From IMG/VR virus record IMGVR_UViG_3300028802_000053, positions 1-25,538 of that record: a stretch of DNA of 25,538 nucleotides. One strand, 5' to 3'. Of the stretch, positions 4,720 through 25,491 are shown piece by piece (the stretch's first letter is position 1; each line of letters begins with the position of its first letter). Made by a program: the position numbers and the translations under genes. Origin of the DNA: a virus. The notes below the pieces were generated by a model. That model saw only the letters and a list, made by a program, of their open reading frames with translations. It ran no database searches and had not been told where the DNA came from.

Positions 4720-5051
4720 CCCAGCCCAGGGTGGAGCACGCCTGCCAGATCATGCACGACGCCTACGAGGCCGCAGCCGCCGAGGCGGGCTGGCAGACCC
4801 AGCAGGCATCCCGGGTGCCATGGGCCGACGTGCCCGAAGCCAACAAGGCCACCATGCGGGCCGCCGTCACCGCCCTGCTCGGCTGGCTCGACACCACCGA
4901 GACCGTGCAGATCATGGACATGACCGGCACCGTCGAGACCATCGAGGTGCCACCCCACCGGCACCGCCGGGTCACCGTGCTGCGCACCGAATGGCAGGAC
5001 GGCAACAAGGTCCGGGTCTGGGCCTGCGACTGTGGCCACGAACTCACCTAG
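4716..5051 (+). CDS. Conserved-type actinophage hypothetical protein
   Basis: A 111-residue protein from GTG 4716, overlapping the previous stop. The N-terminal 55 residues (ACQIMHDAYEAAAAEAGW, then VPWADVPEANKATMRAAV) recall a helical domain common in actinophages that resembles RyR-type repeats: His-Asp pair, W.. VPE, then a terminal helix. The C-terminal part is beta-rich (VTVLRTEW) and ends in WACDCGHELT with a CxC. The function is unknown, and the RyR comparison is from memory of patterns. Confidence 0.75.
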   Translation: MTQPRVEHACQIMHDAYEAAAAEAGWQTQQASRVPWADVPEANKATMRAAVTALLGWLDTTETVQIMDMTGTVETIEVPPHRHRRVTVLRTEWQDGNKVRVWACDCGHELT

Positions 5052-5122
5052 GCGACGCCCCATGGGTGCGGCCATCGAGGCCACACTGGTCGTGACACTC
5101 GCCCAGGCCCAGGAGGACCGCC

Positions 5123-5335
5123 GTGCCCGCCACCAAGATGCACACCTGCCGGTGCCACGGCGGGACCGGGGCCAACAAGTGGACCAAGAAGGTCACCGTC
5201 AAGAAGACCGCGAAGACGGCCAAGAAGGGCGGCAAGACCAAACCGACCAAGGTCACCGCCAAGAAGATCACCCCGAAGAAGGCGGCCCCCAAGAAAGCCG
5301 CCGCCTCCAAGGGCGCGAAATGCGACTGCACCTAG
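5123..5335 (+). CDS. Lysine-rich histone H1-like protein with CxC ends
   Basis: A 70-residue protein from GTG 5123, with AGGAGG 10 bases upstream. Residues 18-62 are almost entirely Lys, Thr, Ala and Pro (KKVTVKKTAKTAKKGGKTK, then PKKAAPKKAAASKG), like the C-terminal tails of histone H1 and bacterial H1-like or Lsr2-accompanying proteins. CRCHGG near the N-terminus and CDCT at the C-terminus put a CxC at each end. It is likely DNA- or RNA-binding. It lies four bases before the ParB-like gene, so the two may act together on DNA. The overlapping alternative frame starting at 5062 is poorer in third-position G/C. Confidence 0.8.
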   Translation: MPATKMHTCRCHGGTGANKWTKKVTVKKTAKTAKKGGKTKPTKVTAKKITPKKAAPKKAAASKGAKCDCT

Positions 5336-5339
5336 ACCC

Positions 5340-5924
5340 GTGATCCGCTCCGGCATCGTCACCATCCACGACGACCTCGCCCCGCTGCTGGTCGACATCG
5401 ACACCGTCCACCAGCACCCCGCCAACTACAACAACGGCGACCTCGACAAGATCATCGAGTCGGTGGAGATGAACGGGGTGTACCGGCCCGTCTACGTCCA
5501 GACCGCCACCGACTACATCGTCGCAGGCAACCACCTGTGGGAAGCGTGCAAGACGTTGGGGGCCACCCAGATCCCGGCCGCCCACCTCGACATCGACGAC
5601 ACCACCGCACTGCGGATCATGGTCGCCGACAACTGGATCGCCTCCCTCGCCGTCCCCGACAACTCCCTGCTGCTGCCCATCCTGGAACACCTCCAGACAA
5701 CCGACGGGCTGCGCGGTACCGGCCTCGCCGACCACGACCTGGCCGCCATCCGCGCCCTCGCCGAGATCCCGGCAGGCTACGACGACTTCGCCCAGTGGCC
5801 GCTGATCGCGGTCCGGGTCCCACCCCACGTCCGGCGTGCCTACCTGCGCCTCACCGAGCAGGCCGTCGGCGACCGGGAACGCTTCGAGTTGATGCTGCGG
5901 CTGGCAGGCTGGGATGGGCACTGA
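5340..5924 (+). CDS. ParB-like nuclease-domain protein
   Basis: A 194-residue protein from GTG 5340. The ParB/Sulfiredoxin-type N-terminal domain is visible: VDIDTVHQHPANYNNGDLD, then SVEMNGVYRPVYV (matching the usual NG..P..V strand), then YIVAGNHLWEA (the GxHRxxA-like phosphate-binding box, here GNHLWEA), then ALRIMVADNWIA. The remainder is helical with no clear ParB HTH, so it is the phage ParB-domain type rather than a chromosome-partition ParB. Possible roles are nucleotide-dependent DNA binding or nicking. It follows the H1-like gene and overlaps the next gene. Confidence 0.82.
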   Translation: MIRSGIVTIHDDLAPLLVDIDTVHQHPANYNNGDLDKIIESVEMNGVYRPVYVQTATDYIVAGNHLWEACKTLGATQIPAAHLDIDDTTALRIMVADNWIASLAVPDNSLLLPILEHLQTTDGLRGTGLADHDLAAIRALAEIPAGYDDFAQWPLIAVRVPPHVRRAYLRLTEQAVGDRERFELMLRLAGWDGH

Positions 5925-9627: not shown

Positions 9628-9822
9628 ATGGCGAAGGTCCGGTGGAGCCAGCGGTGCGCTGGCGGCTGCGGCACCTGGCTGTCCGTCGGCTGCCAGGCCA
9701 CCCGGTTGCACCGCTCCTGGTGGTGCCAGCCGTGCCTGACCGTCCACCTGGAGACCTGCCAGGTCTGGACGACTACCGGAACTGGAAGCCCGACGCGCAG
9801 GCCCGAGCCCTCGCTCTCCTGA
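9628..9822 (+). CDS. Cys-rich ribbon frame overlapping the terminase start
   Basis: A 64-residue frame from ATG 9628. CAGGCGTWLSVGC, then WWCQPC and a later Cys, has zinc-ribbon spacing. Third positions are strongly G/C until about 9769 (TCQVW), after which the signal moves to the large-terminase frame one base back. Either this is a short zinc protein overlapping the terminase by about 90 bases, or it encodes the true N-terminus of the terminase joined by a -1 frameshift or a sequencing indel. No ribosome-binding site is visible, and a -10-like TAGCAT lies six bases before the ATG. A 9-bp hairpin (9810-9833) spans its stop. Confidence 0.55.
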   Translation: MAKVRWSQRCAGGCGTWLSVGCQATRLHRSWWCQPCLTVHLETCQVWTTTGTGSPTRRPEPSLS

Positions 9823-11144
9823 GAGAGAGCGAGGAGTCCTCGTGGCGGCCGTTCTACTGCAAGGACCCCACCTGCGACGGGCACCCGCACGCCGACTGGG
9901 AGTGGGAGCACGCCCGCCCCGACCAGCGGCCACCGTCCTGGTCCGCCGACTGGCTGACCCTGCTGCTGTCCGGCGGGCGCGGCTCCGGCAAGACCCGGAC
10001 CGGCTCCGAGATCAGCCACCGGGTCACCCGGCTCACCCCGCGCGTCGCACTGATCGCCGCCACCGGCCCCGACCTGCGCGACACCATGGTGGAAGGCGTG
10101 TCCGGCATCCTGGCCTGCTCACCGCCCGGTGCCCGCCCCGAGTGGGAGCCGTCGAAGAAGAAACTGACCTGGCCCAACGGCTGCATCGGGCACGGCTTCT
10201 CCGCCGAGGAACCGGACCGGCTGCGCGGCCCCCAGTTCGGCTTCGCCTGGGCCGACGAGCCCGCCCACTACCCGCTCGGGCAGACCGTCTGGGACAACAT
10301 GCTGTTCGGCCTGCGGATGGGCCGCAACCCCAAGGTGGTGGCCACCTCGACCCCGAAGCCGACCAAGTTCTTCAAGAGCATCGTCGCCGACCCGCTGACC
10401 GTGGTGCACCGGCCCTCCACGTACGCGAACCTGGCGAACCTGGCCGACACCTTCAAGCGGGTCATCCTCAACCGGTACGAGGGCACCCGGCTGGGCCGCC
10501 AGGAACTGCACGGCGAGATCCTGGAGGATGTCGAGGGCGCGCTGTGGTCCTGGGACATGTTCCAGTGGGTCGACGAGGCACCGCCGCTGATCCGGATCGT
10601 GGTCGGCGTCGACCCGGCCGGTGGGCACAAGCCGACCAACGACGAGACCGGCATCATCACCGTCGGGATCGGCGCGGACAAGAACCTGTACGTGCTCTCC
10701 GACGCCTCCGACCGGTACACCCCGGCGGGCTGGGCCACCAAGGCCAACGACGAGTACGAGGACTTCTCCGCCGACGCGATCGTGCCGGAGAAGAACTACG
10801 GCGGCGAGATGGTCAAGCACACCCTGGAGTCCTCCGGGTACCGGGGCGCTAGGGTCATCCCGGTCACCTCCCGGCGGGGCAAGGCGATCCGGGCCGAGCC
10901 GATCGTGGCGCTGTACGAGAAGCACCGGGTGTTCCACGTCGGCAAGCGCGGGGACCTGGCGCAGTTGGAAGACGAGCAGACCACCTGGGTGCCGGGCGAC
11001 GGCGACTCGCCGAACCGGCTGGACGCCCTGGTGCACGCCGCGACCGAACTGGCCAGGGGCGCGATGCCGTCGGTCATCTCCAACCCGAACGACCTGCTGC
11101 GCAACCGCGAGGTTCCGGTCCCCCGGCACCTGCGGGCCGTTTAG
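9732..11144 (+). CDS. Terminase large subunit
   Basis: Packaging motor ATPase and headful or cos nuclease of about 470 residues. Walker A GGRGSGKT is at residues 81-88, and the Walker B acidic pair (FAWADEPAH) is at Asp175/Glu176. The RNase H-like nuclease part starts with IVVGVDPAGG (Asp294) and continues to PNRLDALVHAATELARG. The start is uncertain: GTG 9732 or 9723, or an ATG at 9642 whose first 40 codons look non-coding (poor third-position bias). The neighbouring frame at 9628 may contribute the N-terminus. The stop TAG at 11142 is inside palindrome 7. Confidence 0.92.
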   Translation: MPDRPPGDLPGLDDYRNWKPDAQARALALLRESEESSWRPFYCKDPTCDGHPHADWEWEHARPDQRPPSWSADWLTLLLSGGRGSGKTRTGSEISHRVTRLTPRVALIAATGPDLRDTMVEGVSGILACSPPGARPEWEPSKKKLTWPNGCIGHGFSAEEPDRLRGPQFGFAWADEPAHYPLGQTVWDNMLFGLRMGRNPKVVATSTPKPTKFFKSIVADPLTVVHRPSTYANLANLADTFKRVILNRYEGTRLGRQELHGEILEDVEGALWSWDMFQWVDEAPPLIRIVVGVDPAGGHKPTNDETGIITVGIGADKNLYVLSDASDRYTPAGWATKANDEYEDFSADAIVPEKNYGGEMVKHTLESSGYRGARVIPVTSRRGKAIRAEPIVALYEKHRVFHVGKRGDLAQLEDEQTTWVPGDGDSPNRLDALVHAATELARGAMPSVISNPNDLLRNREVPVPRHLRAV

Positions 11145-13050: not shown

Positions 13051-16000
13051 ATGGCTGTCACCAGGCTAGGTCTGCTCGGCTCAGCGCAGGACAAGGTTTC
13101 CGGCACCACCCTGGCCATCACCAACAGCAGTGGTGCGACCATCCCGGCCGGGACTCTGCTGGCCATCGCGTTCACGTTCGACAACCACGCCTCGGTCACC
13201 GCCACCGTTACCTCCCTGTCGAACGGTGCCGGAGGCGCGGCATGGACGCTGACCCCGGTGAACGGTTCCGGTGCTTCAACGACCGCCGGGTCCGGGATCT
13301 GGCTCCGGGCCGGATACGTCGTCACCGCCACCGCGATTGCCCCGAGCGCGACCATCACCACGATCACGTTCGCCAACGCCGTGGTGGCGAAGGCCGCCGT
13401 CGTCACCGGCTACGCGGGTGCCTCGGCCACCTTGCGCGGCACCTCCGGTTCGGGCACCGGCACCGGAGGCTCGGCCTCCGCCACGACCTCGGGAACCGCT
13501 CTCGTCGCGGGTGACCTCGTCATCGGGTTCATCGGCGCGGAGAACACCACGATCACCGGCGACACGGACACCATCTTCGGCACCTGGTCGACGATGGTGT
13601 CCATCGCCACCTCCGGCGGTTCCGGTGCCACCAACGCGCTCGCCGGTATCCAGGACAAGATCGTCAATGCCACTGGCAGTCAGACGTTCAACCCGATCGG
13701 CGGCGGCGCGGACTGCGCCGCCCAGGTCATCAGCCTCCAGCCCGCCCCGCCCCCGGCCATCACCCTCGCCGCGTACGGCTTCTACGCCGACGGCACCGAG
13801 TCCGGTGCTGCGACGCTGGCCGCCCAGGACACCGCCCCCAGCGTGGACATCTCCAGTGCCGACCAGAACATGGCGCTGCGGATCAGGTTGCAGTCCACCA
13901 ACGCCAGTGCGATTCCGTCCACCAGCGACTTCCAGTTGGAGTGGGAGAAGAACGCCAGTGGCACCTGGAACGCCGTCTCCGCTGGGGCCGCCTCGTACTC
14001 CAGTGCCAACGCCAGCAACAACGACTACCTGCAAGGGTCGGGCGACTTCTTCGGGGAGGCGTTCCTCGGCAACGGTGCGGCCCTGTCCAAGTTGAGCATG
14101 TGGCTGCGCACGTCGGGGTCGATGGCCGGGGTCACCGTCACCGCCGAACTGTATGCGCACACCGGCACGTTCGGAGTGAACGGCGTAGGCACCGGGTCCC
14201 CGCTGGCGACCTCCACGACAAGGCTCGGCTCGGCGCTCTCGGGGACGACCTTCCAGATGGAGGACTTCGTCTTCGACGGCACCTTCACCCTGGTCAACGG
14301 CACCCCGTACGTCATCGGGGTCACCGCCACCGGACCGCTGGCCATCGCCGGACCCAGCATCTGGATCGGGATGGACGACACGTCACCCACGTCACCCGGC
14401 ACCGGGGTGAACCGGGTCAGCAGTGCCTGGGCGGGCCTCGACTACATCGACTACATCTTCTCCGTCACCACGGTCAGCGCTGTGCTCGCCTACGTTTCAC
14501 CGAACCTGACCGACGCCGGTGTTACCACCAGACGACTCACGGTCGGCACCGGGGCGTTCACCGCAGGTGAGGTGTCCGAGGACGGCCTGGTCGACGACCT
14601 CGGCTGGCCGGGGAACAACTACACCGAGGTGCTGTACCCGATCACCCTGATGCGGGCCGCGCTGGCCAACGGTGACACCATCCGGTTCCGGGTCACCAAA
14701 GACGGCGCGACAACCGACATGACCTACACGGCGGTTCCCACGCTGACCGTCACCGCCGGGCCAGTGCCGGTCACCATCGGGGCGTCCCTCGCCGTCACCG
14801 CCACCATCGGTGCCGCTGCCGTCGAGACCGGCATCGCCGGGGCATCCCTGGCAGTCACCGCCACCATCGCTGCTGCCGCAGTGCGGGCTGCCCCGGTTGC
14901 AGCCGGGTTGGCTGTCACTGCGACGGTCACTGCCGCCGGTGGTGGGGTCATCGCCGCTCCGAGCGCCGGTTTGGCGGCGACCGCGACCATCACCGCCGGG
15001 GCTGTACCCACCCGAGGAGTGGGCGCGGCGCTGGCCGTCACGGCGACCACGACGGCGGGTGCCGTACCCACCGTTGCCGTTGCCGGGACGACGCTGGCCG
15101 TTGTTGCCACGGTCACCACCGGGGCGATCGGGGTCCGACCCGCAGCGGCCGGGCTGGCCGTCACCGCCACCATCGGGGCGGACCTGACCCGGCTCCAGCC
15201 AGCCGGTGCCGCCCTCGCCGTGACCGCGTCGATCGCCGCTGGTGCCGTCGTGGTGAAGGCAACGGTCAGCGCCGACGCGGCCCTGGCTGTGGTGGCGACC
15301 ATCAGCGCCGGGGCGGGCCGTGGCCAGCCGCTCGACACAACCTTGGCGGTCACCGCGACGATCACCGCCGGTGCCCTGCAAGTCGTCGGTGTCGGCGCAT
15401 CCCTCGCCATCACTGCCACCGCGACAGCAGGGGCCGTCCGGGTCGCACCGGCCGACACCGGCCTGGCCGTCACCGCCACCATCTCGGCGGGGCTGGCCAG
15501 GGTCCAGTTGTCCGGCGCATCACTGGCCGTGACCGCGTCGATCACCACCGGTGCACTGCCGGTCGCTGCGGTGACCGCTGGACTGGTCGTCACTGCCACG
15601 GTCAGCGCGGGAGCCGCCCCGACTCACGTCATCGCCGCCGGACTCGCCATCACTGCCACCACGACAGCGGGGGCCGCCGGGGTCCAGTTCGCCGGGGCTT
15701 CGCTGGCCGTCGTCGCCACCGTGACGACCGGGGCCATCCCTACCCGGACCGTCGGGGCCGCGCTCGCGGTCACCGCCACCACCACGGCTGGCGCTGCCCG
15801 AGCCCTGTTCGTCGGCACCAACACCCTCGCCGTCACGGCGAGCATCACGGCCGCGCCGACCGGTGGCCAGCCGGTTGCCGCCAACCCACTGGCCGTCACT
15901 GCGACCATCACCGCCGGGGCACTGGCCGGGGTCCGGGTCACCGGCAACGCACTTGCCATCGTCGCCACCGTCACGACCGGAGCCGCAGTCCTCCGGCCCA

Positions 16001-16347
16001 CCGGCGCGACCCTCGCTGTCACCGCAACCGCCACGGCAGGTGCGGTAGCCGGGGTCCGGGTTGCCGCCAACCTGCTGGCCGTCACCGCAACCATCTCGAC
16101 CGGTGCGGCCCGGTTTGTCGTCGCCGGTGCCGCACTCGCCATCACTGCCACCACGGTCACCGGTGGCAGTGTGATGACACCGAAACTTGCCGGGGCTGCC
16201 CTGGCAGTGACGACTACGATCACCGCCGACGCGACCATCTTCCGGCTGCCCACCAAGATATGGGTGGACGATCACTGGGAGATCAAACCGGTCTTCCGGT
16301 GGAACGGGACACAGTGGGTTCCGGCCAAGATCGCGCTGCCCACATGA
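13051..16347 (+). CDS. Giant repeat fibre protein, 1098 aa
   Basis: ATG 13051, with AGGGGCAGGG upstream. Residues 1-230 are a Ser/Thr/Gly/Ala-rich beta domain. Residues 235-575 hold one or more beta-sandwich domains (LAAYGFYADGTES, then MALRIRLQST, then KLSMWLRTSG). Residues 578-1061 consist of 24 tandem imperfect repeats of about 20 residues around LAVTATITAGA. The last 35 residues form a distinct tip with two aromatic strands (WVDDHWEIKPVFRWNGTQWVPAK). The short hydrophobic-polar alternation in the repeats suits a beta-solenoid or fibrous shaft. It is likely a virion fibre ending in the tip domain. No enzymatic motif is seen. Confidence 0.75.
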   Translation: MAVTRLGLLGSAQDKVSGTTLAITNSSGATIPAGTLLAIAFTFDNHASVTATVTSLSNGAGGAAWTLTPVNGSGASTTAGSGIWLRAGYVVTATAIAPSATITTITFANAVVAKAAVVTGYAGASATLRGTSGSGTGTGGSASATTSGTALVAGDLVIGFIGAENTTITGDTDTIFGTWSTMVSIATSGGSGATNALAGIQDKIVNATGSQTFNPIGGGADCAAQVISLQPAPPPAITLAAYGFYADGTESGAATLAAQDTAPSVDISSADQNMALRIRLQSTNASAIPSTSDFQLEWEKNASGTWNAVSAGAASYSSANASNNDYLQGSGDFFGEAFLGNGAALSKLSMWLRTSGSMAGVTVTAELYAHTGTFGVNGVGTGSPLATSTTRLGSALSGTTFQMEDFVFDGTFTLVNGTPYVIGVTATGPLAIAGPSIWIGMDDTSPTSPGTGVNRVSSAWAGLDYIDYIFSVTTVSAVLAYVSPNLTDAGVTTRRLTVGTGAFTAGEVSEDGLVDDLGWPGNNYTEVLYPITLMRAALANGDTIRFRVTKDGATTDMTYTAVPTLTVTAGPVPVTIGASLAVTATIGAAAVETGIAGASLAVTATIAAAAVRAAPVAAGLAVTATVTAAGGGVIAAPSAGLAATATITAGAVPTRGVGAALAVTATTTAGAVPTVAVAGTTLAVVATVTTGAIGVRPAAAGLAVTATIGADLTRLQPAGAALAVTASIAAGAVVVKATVSADAALAVVATISAGAGRGQPLDTTLAVTATITAGALQVVGVGASLAITATATAGAVRVAPADTGLAVTATISAGLARVQLSGASLAVTASITTGALPVAAVTAGLVVTATVSAGAAPTHVIAAGLAITATTTAGAAGVQFAGASLAVVATVTTGAIPTRTVGAALAVTATTTAGAARALFVGTNTLAVTASITAAPTGGQPVAANPLAVTATITAGALAGVRVTGNALAIVATVTTGAAVLRPTGATLAVTATATAGAVAGVRVAANLLAVTATISTGAARFVVAGAALAITATTVTGGSVMTPKLAGAALAVTTTITADATIFRLPTKIWVDDHWEIKPVFRWNGTQWVPAKIALPT
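14782..16233 (+). repeat. 24 tandem fibre repeats
   Basis: In-frame repeats of roughly 57-66 bp, each coding a variant of (A/G)LAVTAT(I/T)(T/S)AGA plus a variable 6-9 residue connector. Copies differ in many synonymous and connector positions, so the array is old or diversified rather than freshly duplicated. Repeat length varies (for example, longer connectors from copy 18 onward, often starting with Asn before the LAV core). Confidence 0.85.
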
Positions 16348-16395: not shown

Positions 16396-18159
16396 ATGCC
16401 ACGACGGACGAGACAGCAGCCGCCCGTCATCCCGACGAGCGCACTGGTCGCCTCCAGTACCCGCTACCCCGGGAAGTCTGCGCGGATCTACCAGCCCCGA
16501 CAGGACTGGCAGCGTGAGTGTTACCGGCACTACGCCATCTGCGGGGAGGCCAGGTTCGCCGCCAGGTTCTTCGGCAACGCCTGCTCCCGGGCGGCGCTGG
16601 CCACCGGGGAGGTGCAGGCCGGGGTGGTCAAAGAGACGCCGACCGGGCCAGCCGCCGACATGCTGGCCGCACTGTTCAACGGCCGGGACGGCCAGACCCA
16701 GATGCTGGACGCGATCGGGGTGCACCTCACGATCGCCGGGGAGTGCTACCTGGTCGGCCGCCAGGTCGAGGGCGCGGACGTGTGGGAGGTCGTCTCCTGC
16801 ATGGAGATGGTGGTACAGGGTGAGTCGTGGTCCATCAACTATGGCGACGGCCTGCCGCCGGTGATGCTCGGCGAAGACGATGTCATCATCCGGATCTGGC
16901 TACCGAACCCGGCCCGCCGGATCGAGGCCGACTCGGCGTTCCGCTCGCTGTTGCCGATCCTCGGCGAGATCGAATGGCTGACCCGGCACGTCTTCGCCCA
17001 GATCACCTCCCGTCTGGCAGGCGCTGGCATCCTGCTGATGCCGCAGGGCATGACCTTCCCGCCGCCGCCGGACCAGAACGGGGCAGCGACGGAGACGACC
17101 AACGACGCAGACGCCTTCATGCTCACCCTGGCCGACGCGATGATGACCCCGATTCAGGACCCGTCGTCACCGGCCGCGATGGTGCCGATCGTGGTGACCG
17201 CACCGGACGAGGCCATCGACAAGCCCCGGCTGCTGACGTTCTGGTCCGACCTCGACGACGCCGCCAAGGACCTGCGCGGTGAGGCGATCCGCCGGTTCGC
17301 CCTCGGCATGGACCTGCCGCCGGAGCAGATCCTCGGGATGGGCAGTCACGGTGGCTCCGGTGGCGGCCGATCCACCGGGGTCAGTCACTGGGGTGCCTGG
17401 CAGATCGAGGAGTCCACCGTCAAGATGCACATCGAGCCGATGCTCGATGTCATCGTCAACGCCCTCACGATGGGCTACCTGCGGCCCGGCCTGGACGACG
17501 ACCTGGTCGCCGTCATCGTGTATGACACGTCCCGGCTGCGGCTGCGCCCGGACCGGTCCAAGGAAGCCTTCGAGTTGTACGACCGGGGGCTGCTGTCCGT
17601 GGAGGCGCTGCTGCGGGAGAACGGCTTCGACATCGACGACCTGCCCGACGAGATCGGGTTCCGCCGCTGGCTGCTGGTCAAGGTGGCCTCCGGTTCGTCC
17701 ACCCCCGAGCAGGTCCAGGCGGCGCTGGGTGCGCTCGGTGTCGACCTGGGCGACGTGCTGTCCGAGGCGATCCCCCGGCAGTCCCCGCAGCCGCCGTCAC
17801 TGGAGGAGCACCCGCAGCGGCCCCGCACCCCGGCGGAGCGCAGCGCGCTGCTCGCCGCCAGCGAGGCCCTGGTGTTCCGGGCACTGGAGCGGGCCGGGAA
17901 CCGGCTGCGGCAGTCCACCGCCAAGCCGCCCGGGGTCCCCGCCTACGAGACCCACGTTTACATCCGGGCCAACGGCTCGTGTGACCGGCTACTGGAAGAC
18001 GCCTGGTCGTGCGCACCGCAGATCCTGGACGGCATCGCCGACCCCCTGACGGTGGTGCCGGTGCTCAACTCCTACTGCCAGGCCCTGCTGACCGAGCAGT
18101 CACCGCACCAGCGGGACCGCCTCGACGGCTGGCTGCAACTCGCGGAGGCCGTCACATGA
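16396..18159 (+). CDS. Portal protein
   Basis: A 587-residue protein from ATG 16396 with AGGTGA upstream. It forms the dodecameric ring at the capsid vertex through which DNA is packaged. Evidence is the N-terminal wing region (WQRECYRHYAICGEARFAARF), the WEVVSCMEM and EDDVIIRIWLPNPARRIEADSA segment with the usual 'P.P...Y/ADS..RS' helix, the IPxxxxGAGxLLxP-like ASRLAGAGILLMP stretch, a helical clip/stem (DLRGEAIRRFALGMDLPPEQILG) and a long C-terminal tail. Size and the following MuF gene support it. It overlaps the next start by ATGA. Confidence 0.88.
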   Translation: MPRRTRQQPPVIPTSALVASSTRYPGKSARIYQPRQDWQRECYRHYAICGEARFAARFFGNACSRAALATGEVQAGVVKETPTGPAADMLAALFNGRDGQTQMLDAIGVHLTIAGECYLVGRQVEGADVWEVVSCMEMVVQGESWSINYGDGLPPVMLGEDDVIIRIWLPNPARRIEADSAFRSLLPILGEIEWLTRHVFAQITSRLAGAGILLMPQGMTFPPPPDQNGAATETTNDADAFMLTLADAMMTPIQDPSSPAAMVPIVVTAPDEAIDKPRLLTFWSDLDDAAKDLRGEAIRRFALGMDLPPEQILGMGSHGGSGGGRSTGVSHWGAWQIEESTVKMHIEPMLDVIVNALTMGYLRPGLDDDLVAVIVYDTSRLRLRPDRSKEAFELYDRGLLSVEALLRENGFDIDDLPDEIGFRRWLLVKVASGSSTPEQVQAALGALGVDLGDVLSEAIPRQSPQPPSLEEHPQRPRTPAERSALLAASEALVFRALERAGNRLRQSTAKPPGVPAYETHVYIRANGSCDRLLEDAWSCAPQILDGIADPLTVVPVLNSYCQALLTEQSPHQRDRLDGWLQLAEAVT

Positions 18160-21131
18160 TCGTGCTCGCACTGGAGGAGTTCGCCGCCAAGCGACGCGGC
18201 GACCAGACCGACCTGGAGCAGTCGCTGTTCCCCTTCGTCTCGGAGGCGATGGACGCCTACCCGGTGCAGGGGTGGTACGACGACCTGCTCCGTGAGGTGG
18301 CCCGCGCCTACCTGTCGGTGTTCCACAACGAGGGCGGCACCGGCCAGCCGAAGCCGAACGCCCGCGACTTCGTGGCCGACGTGCGGACCGCGCTGGACAA
18401 GACCGAGAGCCCCGACGAGAACACCGTCGCCCGGGTTAGTACCTGGCTGTCCACCGCCATCCTGAACGGCGCGACCCAGGCGGCTGCCGCCTCCGACGAG
18501 GAGTTCCTGGTCATGGAGTGGGTGACCATGCACGACTCCTCGGTGCGCCCCGCCCACCACGACACAGAGGGCCAGCAGCGCCCGCCCGGCGTGCCGTTCG
18601 ACGTGGACGGTGCCCCGATGCGCTACCCCGGTGACCCGCTGGCCCCGATCGGACTGTGGATCAACTGCCGGTGCACGCTCGCCCCGGTGCTCGGCAGCGA
18701 GGCCGCGTCGATCGCGCGCAAGGCGATGCGCCGCGCGGTGGACTCGCTGGATGCCTCCGTCGACACCGAGACCTCGCTGGTGCTGGTCGCGCTGCCCGCC
18801 GAGGCCGACCCGGTGCACCAGATCGGCGACGAAGACAAGCACCTGACCTTGATCTGGCTGGGTAAAGGCTCAGCCGCTGACCGCGAGAAGATCGGAGCGG
18901 CGGTCGCCGACGTGGCCGACATGGTCGGCGAGCCGTTCCAGGTGGCCGTGTCCGGGCAGGGCAGTCTCGGACCGGACCATGCCAAGGTGTGGTTCGTCGA
19001 GTCACCGATGGTGCAGGCCGTGCACGACGTGCTGCTCGACGACTCCGAGGTCGCCGAGGCGTTCGAGTTGGCCGACCAGACCCACCCGCATTTCGTCCCG
19101 CACGTCACCATCGGCTACGGCGAGGACACCCCCGCCGAGGCCACCGACATCGAATCCATCCTGTTCGACCGGCTGGCCGTCTGGGACGGTGAAGCACGGA
19201 CCGAGTACCCGGTAGGAGACGCCATGACGGACACCGAGACCGAGGCACCGCAGCAGGAAGCCGAGCCGCAGGAGGAGCAGGTCATGTCACAGCCGGTGCC
19301 GTGGCACGGCGTCCTCGCGCCGGAAGGCGTGTGGTCCGGGGACAAGCGGCGCTTCGCCGAGGGGTCGCTGCGGTTCCGGGACCTGCCGATCCCGCTGACC
19401 TGGCAGAAGGCCAGCAGCGAGGGCCACGGCGGCTCCGTCGTGGTCGCCCGCATCGACGAGATCGAGCGGGTCGGCAACATGATGCAGGCCTCCGGGGTAT
19501 TCCTCGCCACGCCGGAAGCCGACGAGGCGGTCGGGCTGGTTGCGCAGTTCGGCCGCTTCGGCGTGTCCGTCGACGCCGACGACGCCGAGTTCGACTTCGA
19601 CGAGGAGACCTCCGAGATCACCTTCACCTCGGCCCGGATCGCGTCCGCGTCGATGGTGTCGATCCCGGCGTTCGCCGAGGCGTTCATCGCCCTCGGTGGC
19701 TGGTCCGACGGTGAGCCCGCCGTGGAGGCCGTCCCGCTGGACCCGGCGATGATGCCGGACGACACCGAGTGCGACCCGGACGCTCCGGACTACGAGGAGT
19801 GCCTGGCCCGGCAGAAGGAAGCCCCGGCCGCCGCCGGGGTGATGTTCGTCTCGGACAAGCCGTGGTCGGACTTCACCGCCGCCGACTACACCGACCAGCA
19901 GTGGAAGTCGGCCTGCTGCCTGCACGTCGCCGACACCATGAACAAGTCGGACCACAAGTTGCCGATCAAGGAGCCGGGTGGTGCGCTGAACCGGAACGGG
20001 GTGCACGCGGCGGCAGCCCGGTTCAACCAGGTGCAGGCCCCGGCCCCCGCGAAGGCAGCGGCCAAGCGGACCCTGCGCGGCGCGTACGGCACGCTCGGCG
20101 AGGACCCGCCGGACGTGTTGAAAGCGGCCGTCATCCTGCCCGAGCAGTTCAAGCGCGGACCCGGCTGGGTCACCAACCCGGTCGCCACCAAGCGTCTCCA
20201 CGACTACTGGACGGTGCCCGGCCACGAGGGCTACGCCAAGATCGGCTGGGGTGTGCCGGGCGACTTCGACCGGTGCCGCGCCGAGGTCGGCTCAGAGATC
20301 GCCGAGAACTCCCCGGACAAGACCCGGTTCCTCAACCAGATATGCGCGCAGTGGCACCACGACGCGCTCGGCTACTGGCCGGGACGGCCGACCTCCGGGG
20401 ACACCAGGCAGTTCGAGGGTGACCCGGCACCGGCGCTGACGCTGCTCGCGTCCGGCGGGTTCTGCGCACCGTCCGAGTGGTTCCAGGACCCGGTGCTGCC
20501 GGAACTGACCCCGCTTACCGTCACCGAGAAGGGCCGGGTCTTCGGCCACCTCGCCGGGTGGTCGACCTGCCACATCGGGTACGAGGACATGTGCGTCTCC
20601 CCGCCGCACAGCGCGTCGAACTACGCCTACTTCCGCACCGGCTCGGTCATGACCGACGCCGGGATGGTTCCGGTCGGCAACATCACCATCGGCGGCGGAC
20701 ACGCCTCACCGGGGCTACGACCGAAGGCAGCACTGGCGCACTACGACTCGACCTCCACGGCGGTCTGCGACGTGGCCGCCGGTGAGGACGAGTACGGGAT
20801 CTGGCTGGCCGGGTGGGTCCGGCCCGGCACCTCCGACGAGCAGGTCGCCGCGCTGCGCGCGTCCGGCCCGTCCGGGGACTGGCGGCGGATCGGTGGCGAG
20901 ATGGAACTGATCGCTGCCCTCGCCGTCAACGTGCAAGGATTCCCGGTGCCCCGGGTCGGGGTGCAGGACGCCGTCCAGGTCGCCCTGGTCGCGGCCGGTA
21001 CCGTCGAGCGCCCGGAGCCGGTCGCGGCGCTGGACATGGACGCGCTGGCCGCCGAGGTGGAGCGCAACATCATGGCCCGCCAGGACCGCCGGAACCAGAT
21101 GGCGGCGCTGGCTGCCCGAGTCGGAGGGTGA
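18156..21131 (+). CDS. Multidomain head protein: MuF + 2H phosphoesterase + protease + extra domains
   Basis: A 991-residue protein from ATG 18156, coupled to the portal gene. Residues 1-190 are a MuF-type minor head domain (MEWVTMHDSSVRPAHHDTEG, then yPGDPLAP and INCRC). Residues 205-345 are a 2H phosphoesterase: HLT at 229-231 and HVT at 316-318, 87 apart, as in LigT-like enzymes. Residues 378-515 resemble a prohead serine protease (GHGGSVVVARIDEI with His424; FGVSVDADDAEF with Ser471). Then come conserved actinophage modules: SDKPWSDFTAADYT with HKLPIKEPGGALNRNG (about 567-650), DYW with WGVPGDFDRC (about 685-735), and GRVFGHLAGWSTCHIGY through SGDWR (about 785-930). A coiled C-terminus follows. 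It is probably a self-processing head-assembly protein. Confidence 0.85.
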   Translation: MIVLALEEFAAKRRGDQTDLEQSLFPFVSEAMDAYPVQGWYDDLLREVARAYLSVFHNEGGTGQPKPNARDFVADVRTALDKTESPDENTVARVSTWLSTAILNGATQAAAASDEEFLVMEWVTMHDSSVRPAHHDTEGQQRPPGVPFDVDGAPMRYPGDPLAPIGLWINCRCTLAPVLGSEAASIARKAMRRAVDSLDASVDTETSLVLVALPAEADPVHQIGDEDKHLTLIWLGKGSAADREKIGAAVADVADMVGEPFQVAVSGQGSLGPDHAKVWFVESPMVQAVHDVLLDDSEVAEAFELADQTHPHFVPHVTIGYGEDTPAEATDIESILFDRLAVWDGEARTEYPVGDAMTDTETEAPQQEAEPQEEQVMSQPVPWHGVLAPEGVWSGDKRRFAEGSLRFRDLPIPLTWQKASSEGHGGSVVVARIDEIERVGNMMQASGVFLATPEADEAVGLVAQFGRFGVSVDADDAEFDFDEETSEITFTSARIASASMVSIPAFAEAFIALGGWSDGEPAVEAVPLDPAMMPDDTECDPDAPDYEECLARQKEAPAAAGVMFVSDKPWSDFTAADYTDQQWKSACCLHVADTMNKSDHKLPIKEPGGALNRNGVHAAAARFNQVQAPAPAKAAAKRTLRGAYGTLGEDPPDVLKAAVILPEQFKRGPGWVTNPVATKRLHDYWTVPGHEGYAKIGWGVPGDFDRCRAEVGSEIAENSPDKTRFLNQICAQWHHDALGYWPGRPTSGDTRQFEGDPAPALTLLASGGFCAPSEWFQDPVLPELTPLTVTEKGRVFGHLAGWSTCHIGYEDMCVSPPHSASNYAYFRTGSVMTDAGMVPVGNITIGGGHASPGLRPKAALAHYDSTSTAVCDVAAGEDEYGIWLAGWVRPGTSDEQVAALRASGPSGDWRRIGGEMELIAALAVNVQGFPVPRVGVQDAVQVALVAAGTVERPEPVAALDMDALAAEVERNIMARQDRRNQMAALAARVGG

Positions 21132-21548: not shown

Positions 21549-23159
21549 GTGTTCGAGATCCTGAGCAACCTCGCGGAACTCAGCGACGAGCGACTTGCCG
21601 AATACGGCACCGAGGTCCGCGCCGCGTTCGACGCGCTCATCGCCGCCGAGTCCCCCACCACCGAGCAGATCGAGCAGGCCGAGGCGTACGCCGACGCCAT
21701 CGACGCGGTCGAGACCGAGACGGCCTCCCGTGTCACCGCCGCCGAGGCGCTGGCCGAGCGCACCGCCGCGCTGCGCACCCGCTTCACCGAGGCACCGCCC
21801 GAGCCCGACCCCGCCGAGGCGGAGGCCGAGGCCAACGACGACGGCGAGAACGACAGCGGCGACGAGTCCGCACCCGAGTCCACCCAGGCCGCTGCCCGGC
21901 CCCGGGTCCGCGAACTCGCCACCCGGGTCCCCCGGCCCCGCGCCCCCGCCGCGACCCGGACCCCGGTGGTCATCACCGCCGCAGCCGACGTACCCGAGTT
22001 CTCCACCGGCTCCGCGCTGGAGTCGATGGCCACGGTCGGCACGGCCCTGCTGAACCGGATGCGCGGGTTCGGCACCCCGTCCGGCGACGGCAAGACCGAG
22101 AACCTCCAGCACTACGGGGTGGCCGCGTTCCGGCTGGACTTCCCGCCCGAACTGACCATCGACCGGCACTCCGACGACATGGAGGTGCTGACCTACGCGG
22201 GCCGCGAGGCTCGCCTGCCGGGCAACTCGCTGGTCGCCTCCGGCGGCTGGTGCGCCCCGTCGGAGACCCTGTACGACCTCTGCGCTGGCGAGACGACCGA
22301 GGGCATCCTGTCCGTGCCCGAGGTCAACGTGGCCCGGGGTGGCATCAAGTACACGTCCGGCCCTGACTTCTCGACGATCTACTCGGCCGTCGGGTTCTGC
22401 CAGACCGAGGCGCAGGCCATCTCGGGCACCGCCAAGACTTGCTTCGAGGTGCCCTGCCCGTCCTTCACCGAGGTCCGCCTCGACGTGTGTGGGCTGTGCA
22501 TCAAGGCCCCGATCCTCACCAACTCGGCGTACCCCGAACTGGTCCAGCGTTGGCTGTCCGGCTCGCTGATCGCCCACCAGCACAAGATGAACGCCAAGGT
22601 CATCGCCGCGATGGCGACCGCCGCCGGTGCCGCCAAGGTCATCGCTGGCATCGGCACCACCGCCGGTGACACCCTCGGCGGGCTGGAACTGATCGCCGAC
22701 GGACTGCGCCAGAAGTACCGCCTGTCGCAGTCGGCGACCCTGGAGGTCGTGGTCCCGTTCTGGGTGAAGGGCGCGATCCGCTCCGACCTGTCGAACCGGA
22801 CCGGCACCTCCGGTGCGGAGGCGATCACCGACGCGCAGATCACGGCGCACTTCGGTGCCCGCAACCTGTCCGTGTCGTTCGTCTACGACTGGCAGGACCT
22901 GGCGACCCCGCCCGCAGTGGCCTACCCGACGACCTACCAGGCGCTGGTCTACCCGGCCGGGACGTTCATCAAGGGCACCTCGGACGTGATCAACCTCAAC
23001 GCCGTCTACGACGCGGCGTCGCTCGCGCAGAACATCTACACCGCGCTGTTCTTCGAGGAAGGCGTCCTGGTCGCCAAGATGTGCAACGAGGCGGCCCTGG
23101 TCACCCTGCCGATCTGCAACGCCGGTCGCTCGGGTGCCGCGAACTTCACCTGCCCCTGA
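21549..23159 (+). CDS. Major capsid protein, HK97-type with N-terminal scaffold
   Basis: A 536-residue protein from GTG 21549 with GTAGGAGCC upstream. Residues 1-80 form a coiled coil (LAELSDERLAEYGTEVRAAF and on) like the HK97 delta/scaffold domain. Next come an acidic linker and a basic stretch (RPRVRELATRVPRPRAPAA, about 117-135), where the protease would cut. The shell domain follows: LPGNSLVASGGWCAPSE and LTNSAYPELVQRWLSGSLIAHQHKMN, then LEVVVPFWVKGAIRSDLS (P-domain and spine-like), ending GAANFTCP. It has ten cysteines, all in the shell part. Position after the protease and before tail genes is classical. Confidence 0.9.
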   Translation: MFEILSNLAELSDERLAEYGTEVRAAFDALIAAESPTTEQIEQAEAYADAIDAVETETASRVTAAEALAERTAALRTRFTEAPPEPDPAEAEAEANDDGENDSGDESAPESTQAAARPRVRELATRVPRPRAPAATRTPVVITAAADVPEFSTGSALESMATVGTALLNRMRGFGTPSGDGKTENLQHYGVAAFRLDFPPELTIDRHSDDMEVLTYAGREARLPGNSLVASGGWCAPSETLYDLCAGETTEGILSVPEVNVARGGIKYTSGPDFSTIYSAVGFCQTEAQAISGTAKTCFEVPCPSFTEVRLDVCGLCIKAPILTNSAYPELVQRWLSGSLIAHQHKMNAKVIAAMATAAGAAKVIAGIGTTAGDTLGGLELIADGLRQKYRLSQSATLEVVVPFWVKGAIRSDLSNRTGTSGAEAITDAQITAHFGARNLSVSFVYDWQDLATPPAVAYPTTYQALVYPAGTFIKGTSDVINLNAVYDAASLAQNIYTALFFEEGVLVAKMCNEAALVTLPICNAGRSGAANFTCP

Positions 23160-24603: not shown

Positions 24604-25491
24604 ATGGCTGGTAGCAAGTGCTTCGCCCTGGTGCGTGGCCGAGCCATGCGCGTCACCCGGCTGGACGGCTGTGGCGCAGTGGTGCTCGGCGCGACCTCCA
24701 AGGTGGTCTCGGACGGCTTCATCACCGTGGCGCTGACCGCGAACACCGACGAGGGCACCACCATCAGCGTCACCAACGCGGCAGGCAAGGTCTGCATCCT
24801 GGACGAGCCGTGCCCGCAGTTCACCGGCTACACCGTGGAGGTCGCGTTCTGCGGTGTCGACCCCGACCTGTACCAGTTGATGACCGGCCAGCCGGTCGTC
24901 GTCAACGCCACCGGTGAGGCGATCGGGTTCAAGATGAACTCCGACGTGGACGCCTGCGACTCCGGGTTCGCCCTGGAGGTCTGGTCGAACGTCCCGGCGG
25001 CGGTCTGCGAGGAGGGCGAGGGGCAGCAGTACGGCTACTTCCTCATCCCGTTCCTGCGCGGCGGCGTCATCGGCGACTTCACCATCGGCAACGACGCGGT
25101 GAACTTCACCCTGTCCGGCGCATCCAGCAAGGACGGCAACGCCTGGGACGTGGGACCGTACAACGTGATCAGCGGTGCGGGTGGTGCCCCGGCGAAGTTG
25201 CTGGAGGCGCTGGACCCGAACGACCACCTGCACGTCCAACTGACCTCGGTCGCCCCGCCCGACCCGACCTGCGGTGGTGCCGCCATCGGCGTCCCGGCCA
25301 CCGGCGCGACCGCTGGCATCCCCGGCACGTTCACCCCGGCGAACTCCTACGGTCCGGCGAACTTCGCCTCCATGACGGGGGTCACCGCGAGTCCGGCCAC
25401 CGCCTGGACCACCGGCCAGTACGTCGTGCTCGGCGACGGTTCGCTGGCGCACTGGACCGGCACGGCCTGGGCAACGGGGGCCAAGCCGTAG
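24604..25491 (+). CDS. Probable tail tube (major tail) protein
   Basis: A 295-residue protein from ATG 24604; GGAGGAG lies just upstream. The body is beta-rich with an ordered set of features seen in actinophage major tail proteins: RVTRLDGCGAVVLGATSKVV at the start, DEPCPQFTGYTVEVAFCGVDP, LYQLMTGQPVV, then GEAIGFKMNSDVDAC and a long beta C-terminal domain (FTIGNDAVNFTLSGASSKDG). The last 45 residues (SMTGVTASPATAWTTGQYVVL, then AHWTGTAWATG) look like a short Ig-like or carbohydrate-associated add-on. Position after head genes and before a terminator agrees with high, separately controlled expression. Family assignment is by pattern. Confidence 0.7.
   Translation: MAGSKCFALVRGRAMRVTRLDGCGAVVLGATSKVVSDGFITVALTANTDEGTTISVTNAAGKVCILDEPCPQFTGYTVEVAFCGVDPDLYQLMTGQPVVVNATGEAIGFKMNSDVDACDSGFALEVWSNVPAAVCEEGEGQQYGYFLIPFLRGGVIGDFTIGNDAVNFTLSGASSKDGNAWDVGPYNVISGAGGAPAKLLEALDPNDHLHVQLTSVAPPDPTCGGAAIGVPATGATAGIPGTFTPANSYGPANFASMTGVTASPATAWTTGQYVVLGDGSLAHWTGTAWATGAKP

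Follow-up and report, generated by a model that had tools for sequence, protein, structure and literature searches.

The analysed window comprises the 25,538 bases of a virus record, for which no close DNA-level relative has been found among 50,697 phage records. Genes for a terminase, a portal, a major head protein and a major tail protein have been located in it (Table 1), and downstream of the portal gene lies a frame at 18156-21131 that is open throughout, its 991 codons giving 991 residues, with a starting ATG overlapping the portal gene's stop codon. The closest relatives of its product belong to Arthrobacter, Microbacterium and Curtobacterium phages (identity about 35-42%), and the same fusion order of domains has been observed in homologues from Arthrobacter and Microbacterium phages. 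We read the frame as a gene for head assembly in a tailed phage that has actinobacterial phages as its relatives, a reading that is judged jointly with the whole explanation developed below and shares its evenly balanced probability. Fusion of a capsid maturation protease with a MuF-like domain has been reported for Microbacterium cluster EG phages (PMC7302621), and the window gene resembles such actinobacteriophage fusions in its place between the portal and major capsid genes and in the joining of MuF and protease; unlike the description given here, the available portion of that paper names neither a 2H domain nor an internal start. In the Microbacterium phages Hyperion and Squash, the MuF-protease fusion carries a 2H domain.

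Between the terminase and the portal, a further open frame of 1098 residues is present (13051-16347, + strand), for which no Pfam, PHROG or tblastn match has been obtained (tblastn against the 50,697 phage records), whereas in several annotated relatives this interval contains small gene(s) only.

Table 1. Features of the window and the evidence by which they have been assigned.
Feature	Coordinates	Strand	Evidence
Terminase	9642-11144		Pfam or PHROG match
Portal gene, directly upstream	16396..18159	+	PHROG 776, E=1e-129
Full-length frame, MuF - 2H - protease - further modules	18156..21131	+	Translation, Pfam, PHROG
MuF-like minor head domain, residues 1-186	18156..18713	+	PF04233 match at 104-175
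Linker MuF/2H, mostly predicted disordered, low confidence at 186-204	18714..18773	+	AF2 pLDDT < 50
2H (LigT-like) phosphoesterase domain, residues about 207-353	18774..19214	+	Pfam, AF2 fold
First catalytic motif H-L-T, 229-231	18840..18848	+	H and T kept in 56/56 aligned homologues covering the region
Second catalytic motif H-V-T, 316-318	19101..19109	+	Kept in 57/57, partly selected by search pattern
Internal Shine-Dalgarno (SD) AGGAG, from rare A-ending codons GTA GGA	19214..19218	+	Sequence, codon-use tests
Predicted nested gene from ATG codon 357, 635-aa protease without MuF and 2H	19224..21131	+	Conservation
Linker 2H/protease, predicted disordered, residues 357-377	19224..19286	+	AF2 low pLDDT (about 356-377)
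Maturation protease domain, residues about 380-515, invariant S471	19293..19700	+	T4 gp21 fold match; PHROG 2263
Most conserved C-terminal module, residues 766-976	20451..21083	+	PHROG 21470, E=3e-89; PHROG 18402, E=2e-70
Major head protein gene, downstream	21549..23159	+	PHROG 777, E=6e-146
Major tail protein	24604-25491		Pfam or PHROG match

Domains of the 991-residue frame

The amino-terminal region of the protein matches PF04233 with an E-value of 4e-4, which lies under Pfam's curated cut-off, while 27 of the 29 relatives match this family and PHROG head-morphogenesis families match at E=2.8e-17 (PHROG 2468). W122, D127, H134 and C171-R172-C173 are conserved in this region, and both the sequence domain and the position in the head module beside the portal are those of the MuF class. 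The linkers that follow MuF and 2H are predicted to be disordered, and these places on both sides of the 2H domain could be where release occurs.

Regarding the 2H domain, the Pfam profile PF13563 has a cut-off of 27 bits, which the whole protein passes with 28.3; the isolated domain scores 32.4 (E=1.2e-7), and the profile matches 45 of 46 homologous domains. An AlphaFold2 model, built from the alignment of these 46 domains, has reached a mean pLDDT of 92.6, and its top structural neighbours in the PDB are all 2H enzymes with Z-scores of 10-14: TT0787 (1iuh, 13.8), plant CPDase (13.5), E. coli LigT (12.4), Usb1 (12.2), rotavirus VP3 (12.0), Acb1 (7t26, 10.2) and the penguinpox cGAMP phosphodiesterase (10.1, rmsd 2.7 Å over 129 residues). 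A sequence-profile search of the PDB ranks the penguinpox enzyme first (E=2.8e-7) and LigT PH0099 behind it (1.9e-5). The Pfam family Acb1 (PF23474) matches 7 of the 46 homologous domains, at best with 4.6e-5, and no match to it has been found for the window's own domain at E 0.01. HxT occurs twice in 91 of 94 homologous domains detected by profile in the loci, the exceptions being two truncated domains and one with HxS in the second motif. As the second motif formed part of some search patterns, its conservation is in part a product of the search; none of these patterns contained the first motif, and in isolates found by an unbiased search the second stays HxT or HxS. Thus the two H-x-T/S motifs and, in the predicted structure, the two-lobed fold of the 2H superfamily are both present, and a chance origin of the motif pair has been rejected on the profile match, the predicted fold and the conservation.

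Downstream of the second linker, residues 374-503 superpose on T4 gp21 (5jbl) with Z 10.9 and an rmsd of 3.2 Å over 126 residues and on herpesvirus proteases with Z 8-10, which is the fold of the herpes/HK97/T4-type maturation proteases, and S471 is invariant across 29 sequences. The PHROG families that match the C-terminal module are labelled 'head maturation protease' or unknown; within this module, C805-H806, C813 and S906-G-D-W-R are invariant in 29 relatives. A tandem duplication of the protease, considered for the similar strand-helix patterns of residues 382-513 and 773-925, has been discarded, as profile-profile comparison gives no support (hhalign probability 1%).

The preliminary description of this DNA had already placed MuF, 2H, a serine prohead protease pattern and further modules in one frame, and profiles and predicted folds bear this arrangement out, the protease being of the T4-gp21/herpes type at about 380-513. 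The HLT and HVT motifs are indeed found at residues 229 and 316, and the PF13563 profile backs the 2H assignment beyond the motifs alone. Of the checks named there, structure prediction yields the 2H fold with high confidence, and the inspection of relatives for loss of either histidine has found both motifs retained, at the frequency given above.

The predicted internal start behind the 2H domain

Codon 357, directly past the 2H domain, is an ATG that follows GTA GGA GAC GCC, so that AGGAG stands five bases upstream of it. At the equivalent site, relatives with or without 2H read GAA GGA GTC ACC ATG, GCA AAG GAG AAG ACC ATG or CTA GGA GAG CAG ATG; the purine block and the start have been retained across relatives, and the amino acids and the codon phase vary (EGVTM vs KEKTM). 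Where a glycine codon stands three before the ATG, it and the codon preceding it are A-ending in 34 of 39 cases, where 5.1 would be expected from each gene's own codon usage (P about 1e-29, shared ancestry ignored). To control for ancestry, A-ending codons have been counted over 128 aligned codon columns of the protease; they average 3.8%, the highest share (49%) belongs to a glutamate column, and columns dominated by glycine stay at or below 20%. Shuffling of the codon order in the linker has likewise pointed to a non-random arrangement (Fisher p=2e-11, 35 non-redundant relatives). An SD energy of -7 kcal/mol or lower is reached by 69% of the linker ATGs, compared with 19% of other in-frame ATGs. 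Of the 42 loci in a wider 2H set, 32 have a start codon no more than 9 codons past the domain, and 30 of these 32 starts have an SD energy of -6 or lower, as opposed to 30% of other ATGs. RNA structure at the internal start is lower than elsewhere in the gene (p=1e-8; shared ancestry is ignored in all P values for the internal start).

When the SD energy has been compared with synonymous recoding at fixed amino acids, the difference has not been significant (Fisher p=0.46), because the linker is rich in glutamate and glycine, and purines are encoded by EG, KE and GE in any case. Codon choice and codon order, and not SD strength alone, are what supports the internal start. What distinguishes a nested head gene, a conserved ribosome-binding site with an in-frame start beyond coding needs, is found here, even though the fixed-amino-acid energy test by itself is not significant. 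The start after 2H is missing in 10 of the 42 2H loci, and the loci L052 and L053 are likewise without a start before the protease, whereas in L063-L065 the protease has a gene of its own, which opens with the same kind of start signal. Another in-frame ATG, located at 19284 inside the linker between 2H and protease and preceded by GGAGGAG, is not conserved.

From these sequence comparisons, the apparent fusion is probably a nested gene, which would yield a long MuF-2H-protease chain and, from 19224, a separate protease of 635 residues that lacks MuF and 2H and would begin just ahead of the gp21-like fold. The single fused protein of the preliminary description therefore stands as one open frame and is probably incomplete as an account of the products, since the internal start should yield a separate protease. 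In the simplest history, two adjacent genes have lost the intervening stop while the second start has stayed in use; the gene for MuF and that for the maturation protease would thus have merged into one open frame, in which the latter retained a ribosome-binding site and a start codon of its own. We consider it unlikely that the full-length chain is the single product and that the SD-like stretch is either a relic from a time when the protease had a gene of its own or a side effect of an acidic and glycine-rich linker. The null result at fixed amino acids and the absence of the signal from some relatives would agree with such a relic, but it does not account for A-ending codons in most cases at a site type that elsewhere averages a few per cent, for a signal written in different codon phases, or for the low RNA structure at the site.

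An in-frame internal start that gives a shorter co-terminal head-assembly product is known from lambda C/Nu3, and the short product predicted for the window would be co-terminal in the same way. In lambda, however, the short product is a scaffold within the protease gene, whereas in the window it would be the protease itself, and the window's long form adds MuF and an enzyme cargo. Nothing relevant on internal starts in MuF/maturation-protease genes, on Acb1 packaged in virions or on nested protease/scaffold genes has come out of searches of the open literature, which does not prove their absence. For the conserved internal start and for the quantified turnover of the 2H cassette described below, no earlier description has been found; the rest is mostly of a known kind.

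Gain, loss and relocation of the 2H domain

In many close IMG/VR relatives, the segment of about residues 187-357 that holds the 2H domain is cleanly absent between flanks that are about 60-70% identical; among those concerned are L009, L010, L025 and L029-L032, and 2H-less relatives are 62-69% identical on both sides of the gap. On a tree of the protease and C-terminal modules of 84 relatives, the presence of 2H changes at least 14 times by parsimony, and at least 4 times when only well-supported branches are counted. Among isolated phages, 919 records match the 991-residue protein, 89 of them with a 2H domain. That the domain is dispensable and missing from many close relatives would fit a structural spacer or a binding module of the head without a catalytic role in infection. 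Both HxT motifs have nevertheless been kept in nearly all homologous domains, two truncations and a single HxS apart, although identity drops to about 30%, and we regard a spacer as very improbable.

The position of the domain varies as well. It has been relocated behind the protease in L052/L053 and stands there, as also in L119/L121, at ORF residues 383-539 in place of a variable module, with no internal start before the protease. It is found at the end of the 'portal' protein in Hendrix, mid-way in a separate protease gene in JKSyngboy, and at the opening of a MuF-less protease gene in Kithara. Thus, with 2H domains in portal, protease and MuF chains and in genes beside the terminase, the domain keeps to the company of head genes while its exact attachment varies, and since it travels with the protease in L052/L053 and JKSyngboy, its co-delivery with MuF is not strict.

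Several further arrangements have been noted. In L120 (match at 5001-5468), a single frame comprises portal (2-576), MuF (639-816) and 2H (835-990), while in its relatives L122-L125 the portal stays a separate ORF. L081, L080 and L082 (ReqiPepy6 gp013, Mossy 13, Miek 6) are separate genes with 2H plus further residues, located immediately upstream of the terminase and behind lysis or structural genes, and they are labelled 'RNA ligase' or hypothetical. L045/L046 carry an insertion of ~150 residues near ORF 592-747 in another inter-domain linker (between residues 743 and 754 of the 991-residue protein), which is possibly a second cargo slot. Scanning of the 2H alignment against bacterial genome contigs has confirmed no relative, and PADLOC has returned no match.

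Proposed delivery and possible substrates of the enzyme

Fusions of 2H to MuF and portal in polyvalent proteins have been reported before (Iyer, Burroughs, Aravind 2017, PMC5512222), where, in the available part of the text, such 2H domains are described as not associated with RNA ligases and an RNase or an anti-nucleotide-signal action is proposed; the idea of injection has been repeated for MuF/portal-fused 2H in PMC9503650. The proposal of the preliminary description, a 2H enzyme that is fused to MuF, packaged and injected against nucleotide signals, is therefore prior art for this kind of fusion. The window's 2H is fused to MuF like those proteins and, unlike them, is followed by a maturation protease with an internal start in between; a nested start is not mentioned in the available portions of either paper. 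Avipox LigT-like enzymes have been found to cleave cGAMP (PMC11410667). With these cGAMP phosphodiesterases and with Acb1 of phages T4 and FBB1, the window's domain has the 2H fold and the HxT pair in common; those enzymes are free, whereas the window's 2H sits in a virion assembly protein and its substrate is a prediction.

In the mechanism that we propose, the long chain would place the 2H phosphoesterase next to the portal within the prohead, where the protease would cut the flexible linkers, so that MuF-2H or free 2H would stay in the head and would enter the host along with the DNA. There, it would most likely hydrolyse immune nucleotide signals, i.e., cyclic or 2',5'-linked oligonucleotides. 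The short product would comprise the protease and the downstream modules, and MuF and 2H would be supplied by the long product only, which would result in few enzyme copies per head. While domains, fold, motifs, cassette turnover and the start signal have been computed directly, we infer the use of the start, the cleavage, the packaging and retention, the injection and the substrate, and as a whole this explanation appears to us about as probable as its contrary.

As for the substrate, none of the 17 2H-bearing phage records sampled has an Rnl2-type ligase, and Hendrix is the sole record with RtcB, which the other 16 lack; a search for Rnl1-type ligases (PF09511) has given no match in the control genomes and is uninformative. 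The scarcity of RNA-ligase partners, together with the sequence tie to the cGAMP phosphodiesterase, tilts the balance towards counter-defence, which is mildly favoured over RNA repair on these sequence data. The tRNA repair that the preliminary description had offered as an option has thus been weakened, as 16 of the 17 records have neither ligase, and a role on cyclic phosphates is still conceivable, hydrolysis of 2',3'-cyclic phosphate ends being possible without a phage ligase. In overall structure, LigT and CPDase (Z 12-14) are at least as near to the 2H domain as the cGAMP enzymes are (Z 10). With the same delivery and nested start, the domain might act on RNA ends, opening 2',3'-cyclic phosphates left by anticodon nucleases or toxins, or as an Usb1-like RNase, and would then protect or attack RNA in the newly infected cell, which we take to be somewhat unlikely. 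CPDase, LigT and Usb1 as the highest-scoring folds (12-14), the annotation of many relatives as 'RNA ligase', the RNase option put forward in the available text of PMC5512222 and the RtcB of Hendrix speak for such an RNA-end enzyme; the joint lack of both ligases in the other records and a cGAMP phosphodiesterase as the nearest PDB sequence argue against it.

The gene may serve as a nested loader of cargo, in which an effector-bearing chain is made beside an effector-free protease, initiation at the two starts sets the number of enzyme copies per head, and the interval that separates MuF from the internal start serves as a slot for the repeated gain and loss of a signal-destroying enzyme; we advance this tentatively, its probability falling just short of an even balance. 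The nested start suggests how loading could be arranged, with few copies of a large enzyme tethered to the assembly machinery and enough free protease made alongside. Known anti-CBASS enzymes such as Acb1 are probably made once infection has begun. A 2H enzyme delivered with the DNA would act before phage gene expression, early enough to meet nucleotide-based immunity when it is triggered. As relatives propagate on laboratory Arthrobacter and Microbacterium strains, packaging and function are directly testable, and if the proposal is true, many genes now labelled 'MuF-protease fusion' or 'RNA ligase' would need a corrected annotation.
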